This document shows positions 940-7,079 of a stretch of DNA of 46,406 nucleotides, piece after piece. The notes beneath the pieces are model-generated. The model made no database searches and had not been told where the DNA came from. It worked only from the letters and a program-made list of their open reading frames with translations. The translations under genes and the position numbers were made by a program. This stretch comes from an uncultured Bacteroidota bacterium (GTDB lineage: Bacteria; Bacteroidota; Bacteroidia; UKL13-3): positions 1-46,406 of the forward strand of contig CAIYNF010000089.1 in the NCBI GenBank assembly GCA_903927505.1. Reading direction: 5' to 3'. Every line of letters starts with the position of its first letter. Positions within the stretch are counted from its first letter, which is position 1.

Positions 940-972
940 ATAATTTAGCGTACGCAAGCTACCCTAAATTAT
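940..972 (+). promoter_or_regulatory. Hairpin covering the transposase start codon
   Basis: ATAATTTAG (940-948) is the exact reverse complement of CTAAATTAT (964-972). The right arm takes in the first two bases of the ATG at 971. The 15-base loop starts with a second small palindrome, GCGTACGC (948-955, sharing one base with the stem). Hiding the start codon in a stem is a known way of limiting transposase synthesis in IS200-type elements. That this happens here is inferred from position only. Confidence 0.45.
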
Positions 973-1456
973 GAAAAACAGAAAACTGAACCGATTGCCC
1001 GATTTTGATTATTCAAGAGAAAGATCCTACTTCATCACCTTTAACACGCAAAACAGGGTGAAATACTTCGGGGAAATTTCCAAGCAAGAAATGGTTTTGA
1101 ATCCAACTGGTCAAATTGTTTTTGAACAATGGCAATGGCTGCTTAATCAATATCCCTATTTAAGCGCAGATTCATTTGTTATTATGCCCGAACACTTTCA
1201 TGCTATCATGAGCATCAAAACCTCCTTTAACAAGAAAAAAGATGAGGGTGTAAATCATCCAAAAATAAAATCTATATCCGAATTGGTGGGTGCCTTCAAA
1301 ACCACCTCTTCAAAAAGAATTCGATTGGAAACAAATCCAAACTTCTCATGGCAACGCTCATTTCACGATAAAATCATACAAACTCCCCTCGAATACGAAA
1401 ACATAAAACGATATATACAAAACAACCCTGCATCTTATGGGGACCATCATGGGTAA
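971..1456 (+). CDS. REP-associated tyrosine transposase (RAYT, Y1/HUH family)
   Basis: This 161-residue protein has the core of the Y1 transposase superfamily, which nicks and joins single-stranded DNA through a 5'-phosphotyrosine. The metal-binding HUH motif is HFH at residues 75-77, within MPEHFHAIM. The catalytic tyrosine is very likely Y148 in RYIQNNP, the position where RAYTs carry YIxxNP. The N-terminal RSYFITFNTQNR strand is also typical of RAYTs. Length fits a domesticated single-copy RAYT (about 150-190 residues) and the key residues are intact. No IS200-type end structure was recognised; instead a block of palindromes begins at the stop codon, as expected for a RAYT sitting beside its REP sequences. 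The ATG is chosen because the hairpin overlaps it and upstream codons are not protein-like. Confidence 0.85.
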   Translation: MKNRKLNRLPDFDYSRERSYFITFNTQNRVKYFGEISKQEMVLNPTGQIVFEQWQWLLNQYPYLSADSFVIMPEHFHAIMSIKTSFNKKKDEGVNHPKIKSISELVGAFKTTSSKRIRLETNPNFSWQRSFHDKIIQTPLEYENIKRYIQNNPASYGDHHG

Positions 1457-1611
1457 GGACAGGTCGCGACACAGGTAAGGACAGGTCGCGACCTGTCCCT
1501 ACGGGTGGCATGATCGGTCACGGGTGGGGACAGGTCGCGACCTGTCCCTACGGGTGGCATGATCTGTCACGGGTAAGGACAGGTCGCGACCTGTCCCTAC
1601 CCGTGACAGAT
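1457..1611. repeat. REP/BIME-like block of GC-rich palindromes
   Basis: The 20-base palindrome GGACAGGTCGCGACCTGTCC occurs three times (1479-1498, 1529-1548 on a slightly extended core from 1527, 1577-1596), spaced about 49 bases apart. A fourth copy with only its left half intact lies at 1457-1470, directly after the transposase stop. The spacer is also conserved (ACGGGTGGCATGATC, then GTCACGGGT). The last copy sits inside a larger inverted repeat, 1562-1611, with 25-base arms differing at one position. The block is far more GC-rich than its surroundings. Being next to a RAYT, it is best read as that protein's REP substrate. Reading frames across it are by-products of the palindromes. Confidence 0.8.
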
Positions 1612-1632
1612 GCGGCGCGACCGATGCGATGC

Positions 1633-1671
1633 GGCGGTTGTTGGCATGGCATCGCCATGCCAACAACCGCC
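1633..1671. repeat. Perfect 18-bp inverted repeat with 3-base loop
   Basis: The left arm 1633-1650 (GGCGGTTGTTGGCATGGC) and right arm 1654-1671 are exact reverse complements around ATC. The sequence differs from the REP palindrome just upstream. It ends two bases before the -33 box of the next gene. It could end transcription of the transposase, although only TTTT follows, or be a second kind of REP unit. Confidence 0.6.
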
Positions 1672-6412: not shown

Positions 6413-6658
6413 ATGGATACTAAACTAACCTTAAAATTAGATGATTCAATTATTAAGCAGGCAAAAAATTATGCCAAACAAAAGGACACAAGTCTTTCAA
6501 AATTAATTGAATCCTACCTTGGCAAATTGGTTACGCCTATGAATGAAGAGGCCATAACACCACTGGTTAAAAGTTTATCTGGGGTAATAGAACTACCAAA
6601 AAAATTAGAACAGAAAAAAGATTACAAAAAACATATCTTAAACAAATACGGCAAGTAA
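6413..6658 (+). CDS. Antitoxin, DUF6364-like (ribbon-helix-helix)
   Basis: This 81-residue protein opens with MDTKLTLKLDDSIIKQAKNY, the beta-strand and first helix of a ribbon-helix-helix DNA-binding domain, followed by a second helix KDTSLSKLIESYL. The lysine-rich C-terminal half (about 45-81) would be the toxin-binding tail. This arrangement is that of DUF6364-family antitoxins. The stop codon is followed after one base by the start of the PIN toxin gene, so the two are translated together. It should neutralise the toxin and repress the shared promoter. Confidence 0.75.
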   Translation: MDTKLTLKLDDSIIKQAKNYAKQKDTSLSKLIESYLGKLVTPMNEEAITPLVKSLSGVIELPKKLEQKKDYKKHILNKYGK

Positions 6659-6659
6659 A

Positions 6660-7079
6660 ATGGAGAAAGTATTTGTGGATACAGATGTGTGTATTGATTT
6701 ATTGTCGGGAAGGATGCCCTTCAATAAAAATGCAGAAATTTTGTTTTCGCTAGCCGACAAAAAGAAAATTAAACTTTATGTATCCTCGCTATCTTTTTCT
6801 AATATCGATTATGTGCTGCAATCACAATATGCTGCCAGTCATTCAAGACAACTCATTGGCAAGTTTAAAACCTTAGTCAATGTTTTATCGGTAGATAGTA
6901 AAACTATTGATTTGGCAATTGCATCCAATTTTAATGATTTTGAAGATGCCATTCAATATTCTTGTGCCATTGAAAACAACCTCTCAACGCTACTAACAAG
7001 AAATATCAAAGACTACAAAAAGGCCAGCATTTCAATTTTAACACCAGAAAGCTTTTTAGCCTTAATAATTAAAAACTAA
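6660..7079 (+). CDS. PIN-domain toxin, VapC-like ribonuclease
   Basis: This 139-residue protein matches the PIN fold, whose acidic residues bind metal and cut RNA. VFVDTDVCIDLL at residues 4-15 carries the first aspartate (D7, with D9 close by). FNDFEDAIQY at 91-100 holds the central E95/D96, and LLTRNIKDYKKA at 111-122 gives the TRN motif and D118. ILTPESFLA at the end is typical of Bacteroidota PIN toxins paired with DUF6364. All key positions look intact, so the module is probably functional. The RNA target is unknown. Confidence 0.8.
   Translation: MEKVFVDTDVCIDLLSGRMPFNKNAEILFSLADKKKIKLYVSSLSFSNIDYVLQSQYAASHSRQLIGKFKTLVNVLSVDSKTIDLAIASNFNDFEDAIQYSCAIENNLSTLLTRNIKDYKKASISILTPESFLALIIKN

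Follow-up and report, generated by a model that had tools for sequence, protein, structure and literature searches.

A RAYT transposase and its probable cognate family of double-foot REPs in an uncultured Bacteroidota bacterium

The described systems closest to the locus studied here are RAYT (TnpAREP) transposases and the REPs that accompany them. TnpAREP subclass 2.4, described in 2018, has double-foot REPs and is abundant in Cyanobacteria and Bacteroidetes. A REP in frame between HUH and Y is predominant in this subclass and is not required (PMC6006769). An earlier note on the present DNA had called RAYT-REP pairs less described in Bacteroidota, which holds only in part given the abundance of subclass 2.4 there (PMC6006769). 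TnpAREP enzymes form a 5′-phosphotyrosine and leave a 3′-OH. They cut between C and T, one enzyme also between C and A, and in one studied case the site is chosen through the GTAG motif (PMC8266576). The GTAG-23 REPs of T. roseum lie within small palindromes, for which A. variabilis offers a further precedent, and the arms there follow a consensus (PMC3733652).

The window, which is the whole stretch of 46,406 nt that was analysed, is contig C89 of a draft genome of 2.82 Mb in 209 contigs (G000). It carries a RAYT gene with an array of REPs directly behind it (Table 1). We put the probability at about 0.87 that the two form a REPtron, namely a single-copy, vertically kept RAYT (TnpAREP) and its cognate family of double-foot REPs, remodelled in trans. 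The pair is a genuine member of the RAYT/TnpAREP kind. In its features it resembles subclass 2.4: as in that subclass, the protein is of the HUH-Y1 type and the GT(A/G)G foot has its complement C(T/C)AC at the other end of the repeat (PMC6006769). Unlike the predominant form of subclass 2.4 (PMC6006769), the window RAYT gene contains no internal REP; some relatives do have one. As in the GTAG REP families and REPtrons, the palindromes are GTAG-tagged, stand beside a RAYT, are clustered, co-evolve with it and in some cases lie within genes (PMC3733652; PMC2817692). A literature search for the palindrome letters, GGACAGGTCGCGACCTGTCC, found no mention of them.

Table 1. Features of the RAYT gene and of the REP block behind it, in window coordinates
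Feature	Position	Strand	Remarks
RAYT / TnpAREP-like HUH-Y1 transposase	971..1456	+	intact ORF, 161 aa; based on profile matches, AF2 model and fold
HUH motif codons H75-F-H77	1193..1201	+	both H invariant in alignments of 13 and 24 homologues
Y148 codon, candidate catalytic tyrosine	1412..1414	+	invariant in alignments of 13 and 24 homologues
Half REP GTAAGGACAGGTCGCGAC	1453..1470	+	starts within the last RAYT codons; also in sister species G015
Double-foot REP copy 1	1475..1502	-	GTAG foot on -, GTAA on +
Double-foot REP copy 2	1524..1551	-	GTAG foot on -, GTGG on +
Double-foot REP copy 3	1573..1600	-	GTAG foot on -, GTAA on +
Inter-REP spacer GGGTGGCATGATCGGTCACGG	1503..1523		GGGTGGCATGATCGGTC part inverted in G015
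50-bp inverted repeat	1562..1611		arms of 25 nt each, complementary at 96%, with copy 3 at the centre
39-nt hairpin	1633..1671		18-bp perfect arms, then TTTT; conserved in G015; closes the block

The intact HUH/Tyr transposase reported in the earlier note is borne out by the reading frame, in which both the HUH motif and the tyrosine are in place. Pfam PF01797 (Y1_Tnp) matches the protein at 1.3e-6, above its cut-off. The NCBIfam model NF047646 (REP_Tyr_transpos) matches it at 2.3e-15, but the score of 56.7 bits is under the curated cut-off of 80, which is a point against the REPtron reading. The same model is matched at E ≤ 0.001 by all 13 sequences of the first RAYT alignment. The AF2 model has a pLDDT of 90.9. 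In a Foldseek search with this model, the E. coli REP transposase 4er8 ranks second (E 4e-7), and the fold matches also include the IS608 and ISDra2 transposases. A profile search with the window RAYT finds 4er8 at 1.1e-7; a single-sequence PDB search gave no match, and neither did a PHROGs search.

The window RAYT is like E. coli TnpAREP (4er8) in fold and profile match and unlike it in sequence, with 20% identity. The residue at the position of E. coli R104 is Q, and the W and the Q of the WQ pair are kept, in a register set by hand. In E. coli, the REP forms a hairpin that is imperfect and has just one foot. The fold is also that of the IS200/IS605 TnpA proteins (IS608, ISDra2). Unlike these, the window RAYT shows no left and right ends of a mobile unit around it, and its gene is syntenic and single-copy. 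A Y1_Tnp search of the G000 genome found it as the sole Y1 transposase, and its neighbours are kept in a synteny common to G000, G015 and G001. The dN/dS of the gene between G000 and G001 is approximately 0.25 (0.224/0.890). Elsewhere in the window, at 6413-7079, two adjacent small ORFs resemble by eye a type II toxin-antitoxin pair with a PIN-like toxin.

The palindrome behind the gene is perfect, 20 bp long, and located at 1479-1498, 1528-1547 and 1577-1596. The full repeat is a double-foot REP of the form GTRN-GGACAGGTCGCGACCTGTCC-CTAC, which holds for all three window copies; perfect GTAG...CTAC feet occur at several loci of relatives. CTAC lies on the far side of all three copies, so that the GTAG foot is on the minus strand each time and the copies run head-to-tail. 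Accordingly, these three copies form no inverted REP doublets (the REPIN/BIME unit). The earlier note had set three full copies and one half copy at intervals of about 49 bp. The full copies are indeed 49 nt apart, whereas the half copy stands 22 nt from the next copy. The GTAA foot of the half copy supplies the RAYT stop codon TAA (1454-1456), and in G001, too, a REP foot provides the TAA that ends the RAYT gene. On the upstream side of the RAYT the nearest REP is approximately 2 kb away in G015 and past the contig end for the window, while the downstream array is immediate.

The 50-bp inverted repeat of the earlier note was also recovered, as a feature separate from the final 39-nt hairpin. 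Two contigs of G015, C24 and C30, both terminate in this hairpin. Folded as single-stranded DNA, the full repeat reached −7.9 kcal/mol (z −5.1), far beyond chance. Copy 3 with its flanks (1561-1612) reached −24.2 kcal/mol (z −9.6), and the terminal hairpin −24.3 kcal/mol (z −8.0). The half copy on its own gave no fold (0 kcal/mol), and the idea that each half unit is its own mini-hairpin was ruled out by this value. An Rfam scan of 900-1800 gave weak matches under the gathering scores, mostly to miRNA families, as is expected for any strong hairpin.

As the REP-like nature put forward earlier implied, the palindrome is present elsewhere in the genome. G000 has 11 copies, all identical, in six clusters on five contigs (reversed control 0), and 8 of them lie outside the window in the five other clusters. 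No palindromes with 1–3 mismatches were found in G000. Contigs break at REPs, which makes these counts minimum values. A count of 11 full copies is low for a REP family, which is another point against the REPtron reading. The half unit GTANGGACAGGTC has 27 exact matches in G000, every one within the palindrome clusters; outside them it was met only with 2 mismatches and was no commoner than the control.

The clusters differ in their settings. Cluster C33 (L013:1501-1564) lies within a long peptidase-like reading frame, with two REPs in frame in G000 and G015 and one in G001. The reading frame has no REP in G017, G010 and G009, and in G013 a remnant seems to be left. Cluster C158b starts at the stop codon of a gene, and its REP foot again includes the TAA; the genes on either side of C158a converge. 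Such places, namely the 3′ ends of genes (the RAYT stop and, at C158b, that of another gene) and the gaps between convergent genes, would suit ordinary transcription terminators or RNA-stabilising hairpins to which the RAYT is incidental. We regard this explanation as very unlikely: all 11 copies are identical, the window REPs are not followed by a T-run, the REPs of C33 are inside a reading frame, and the presence of the palindrome depends on a close RAYT.

This dependence was seen in a family sample of 64 genomes. Some RAYT match is present in 34 of them, and 10 carry the palindrome when up to 2 mismatches are allowed. Where the RAYT match reaches E<1e-30, the palindrome was found in 7/7 genomes, as against 3/57 others (Fisher 1.9e-7), and is thus not equally common in relatives without this RAYT. 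Among the three exceptions, G005 has a RAYT match split in two pieces and flanked by its own variant GGACAGGTCGAGACCTGTCC, G016 (68% complete) has its sole copy where a contig ends, in a stretch that aligns with the window array and is orthologous to it, and G006 has one imperfect copy. When any RAYT match was taken as the criterion, the palindrome was present in 9/34 genomes vs. 1/30 (p 0.015), which is much weaker than for close RAYTs. An alternative grouping at ≥45% identity gave counts of 8, 1, 2 and 53 (p 9e-8), omitting one further short 45% match.

The stems covary. Paired stem substitutions give GGACAAGTCGCGACTTGTCC in 5/5 G010 copies and GGGCAGGTCGCGACCTGCCC in G034. In the orthologous spacer C158a, the GGACAGG type is present in G000, G015 and G001, and G010 has its own REP type; G017 has a different hairpin there and G009 none. 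In G013, the REPs (L124-L131, L147-L151) often have CCCGGG or a close variant approximately 15–20 nt upstream, by eye as if part of a longer repeat.

In a phylum sample of 395 genomes, the exact palindrome occurred in 3, all with a RAYT homologue. Taken alone, this co-occurrence is weak, because 174/395 genomes (44%) have a RAYT homologue anyway. The one copy of G120 precedes the RAYT match by 56 nt; of the 20 copies in G365, none was met within approximately 0.8 kb of the best RAYT match. The 80 closest named RAYT loci were drawn from a collection of one genome per species (84,980 species). Six of them have the exact palindrome: Pontibacter oryzae, a Chitinophagaceae MAG, Flavobacterium stagni, a Ca. 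Magasanikbacteria MAG (Patescibacteria), Segetibacter aerophilus and a Bacteroidetes MAG. At ≤2 mismatches, it is present at 7 of the 10 closest RAYTs vs. 2 of the other 70 (p 1.3e-6), indicating that the REP sequence tracks the RAYT sequence across phyla. A double-foot REP lies inside the RAYT gene, between HUH and Y, in many of the first 30 of these 80 loci. The adjacency, the 11 dispersed copies and the tie to a close RAYT in relatives agree with the pairing of a RAYT with cognate REPs that had been read from the window.

Copies were also found on viral contigs. Seven IMG/VR contigs (L303-L309) have one exact palindrome each, mostly with full GTAG/CTAC feet, and no RAYT match was found on the stretches of them that were examined. 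The palindrome is in frame within a phage ORF in L308 and just past the same gene in L304 and L309. Judged from these sequences, the viral copies suit movement in trans, and they may be host DNA in IMG/VR. A search for empty sites in phages showed that the flank past the phage gene differs among relatives and gave no clean empty site.

Beyond the full palindromes, 14 extra half copies were counted by hand in G000 (≤2 mismatches), and the half copy of the window is one of them. Each of the 14 is found outward of a palindrome, in the orientation of the nearest half and 16–22 nt away from it. In the account of subclass 2.4 in PMC6006769 we met no description of half-REP arrays with a 16–22 nt period. 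The earlier note took the broken copy after the gene for a strand-transfer product. As a scar would, the copy directly adjoins the gene end and is without its 3′ half, but it is also present in G015 and is therefore older than the G000/G015 split. It also obeys the one spacing rule of the 14 outward-facing half copies, 16–22 nt from the next same-strand half. A strand-transfer scar thus seems highly improbable.

The arrays differ between the sister species. The segment after the half copy is inverted: the spacer GGGTGGCATGATCGGTC in G000 corresponds to GACCGATCATGCCACCC in G015. Past the gene at C158b, a 98-nt array is present in G000 and only GTAGGGACAGGTCCCTAC in G015. At C158a, G000 and G015 have arrays with differing half-unit tails, and G001 has a third arrangement. 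At one shared site, the locus-specific tails are CATGTT, twice, in G000 and CGCGAT, twice, in G015. At C39, the flanks are nearly identical, and G015 has a short unrelated sequence where G000 has an array. The differences at C158a, C158b, C39 and the RAYT array indicate a fast turnover of arrays at fixed places.

The RAYT of G015 is 96% identical (L112, minus strand 120-605) and has a stop at codon 142, upstream of Y148, but the REP array persists there despite the early stop. The array is even rearranged, a change that G015 may have undergone without need of the RAYT, and the early stop is a point for host replication as the cause. It is a real possibility, somewhat short of even odds, that the half copies, tandem units and inverted segment arose from host replication slippage and template switching at palindromes, with the RAYT only seeding REPs or idle. 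The half units form short tandem repeats of 16–22 nt period with locus-specific tails, and the half copy is unable to fold as a REP; both suit slippage. By itself, however, slippage leaves unexplained the dispersal of identical 28-mers to unlinked loci and the co-occurrence with the RAYT.

For the REPtron reading, we infer nicking, a single-stranded substrate and the RAYT rather than host replication as the cause of the rearrangements. The RAYT would most likely recognise the GTAG-footed hairpin on single-stranded DNA. The CTAC foot is the full complement of GTAG on either strand and offers a C-T step right beside the stem. The RAYT may nick the folded strand at this foot, between the C and the T of CTAC. 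The free 3′-OH could then join another strand, which would lead to dispersal and to insertion at hairpin tips. Alternatively, it could prime synthesis, which would give extended arms and tandem halves. Rejoining of the strands would leave REPs moved or remodelled in trans.

A further pattern was found in G009, whose RAYT is 48% identical. Here, 11/15 REPs form the exact centre of a longer perfect palindrome, and the arms extend up to 22 bp past the foot. Unlike the consensus arms of T. roseum and A. variabilis (PMC3733652), the enclosing arms in G009 differ at every locus (L152-L167). Arms of ≥5 bp beyond the feet were counted, and the left and right flanks were permuted in 2000 shuffles. The null mean was 0.85, and 0 of 2000 shuffles reached 11/15. 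REPs too near a contig end were left out (2/17 in G009, 1/11 in G000), and the single copies of G016, G034 and G006 were not in the axis count. Dyad-centred placement as a general rule was ruled out by the other genomes: G001 0/20, G013 0/17, G010 1/5, G005 0/6, G015 0/5 and G000 1/10. The flanks in G000 match over 7.0 bases vs. 4.56 (p 0.0035), a milder excess than in G009 and probably due to mirrored half copies.

Several G009 cases are terminator-like, e.g., AAAAAAATCCCCCTCCC-REP-GGGAGGGGGATTTTTTT. At C98, a plain A-run/stem/T-run hairpin without a REP is present in 10/10 relatives examined, with five partial-match genomes outside this count. At C103, which we take from the protein ends to be the probable rpoB-rpoC spacer, a hairpin is seen by eye in 10/13 relatives and none in 3. 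Across the genus, almost every species has its own, unrelated arms for the hairpin of this presumed spacer, and two species show nested palindromes there (L167, L170-L182). A hairpin is present in 1/3 relatives at C22 and in 1/5 at C40, and there is none at C34, C86 and C56b in the single relative compared.

The G009 pattern suggests hairpin-tip targeting. As far as comparison of the sequences goes, insertion into hairpin tips is likely for some G009 loci, and inverted duplication of the flank is possible for others. The long perfect arms may, against the odds, all reflect the latter, that is, snap-back copying from a nicked REP hairpin rather than insertion into existing hairpins. The arms are perfect right up to the REP foot, without a loop remnant. 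In addition, no hairpin was seen by eye at C34 (G002), C22 (G010, G002), C86 and C56b (G002), or at C40 in G001, G002, G015 and G005. The terminator-like hairpin of C98, the hairpins of C103, and those present at C22 in G005 and at C40 in G013 speak against snap-back copying. A wider proposal, which we make tentatively and consider rather unlikely, is that subclass-2.4-like RAYTs put double-foot REPs into exposed hairpin tips, chiefly of intrinsic terminators and intergenic hairpins, on single-stranded DNA. Nested palindromes would result, and repeated rounds together with template switching would grow outward-facing half-REP arrays like that of the window.

As a pairing of RAYT and REPs the locus is ordinary, since other such pairs have been described; what merits further attention is the set of array rules and the hairpin-tip placement in G009. 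Neither the way in which REPs move nor the reason for their extragenic position is settled in the field. The present family is small (11 full copies, one RAYT) and has sister genomes, in which sites can be compared with and without REPs. With the inverted segment and the hairpin-tip REPs of G009, the choice of target and the growth of arrays can be tested directly in a system that is compact. If true, hairpin-tip targeting would account for REPs being extragenic and located 3′ of genes.
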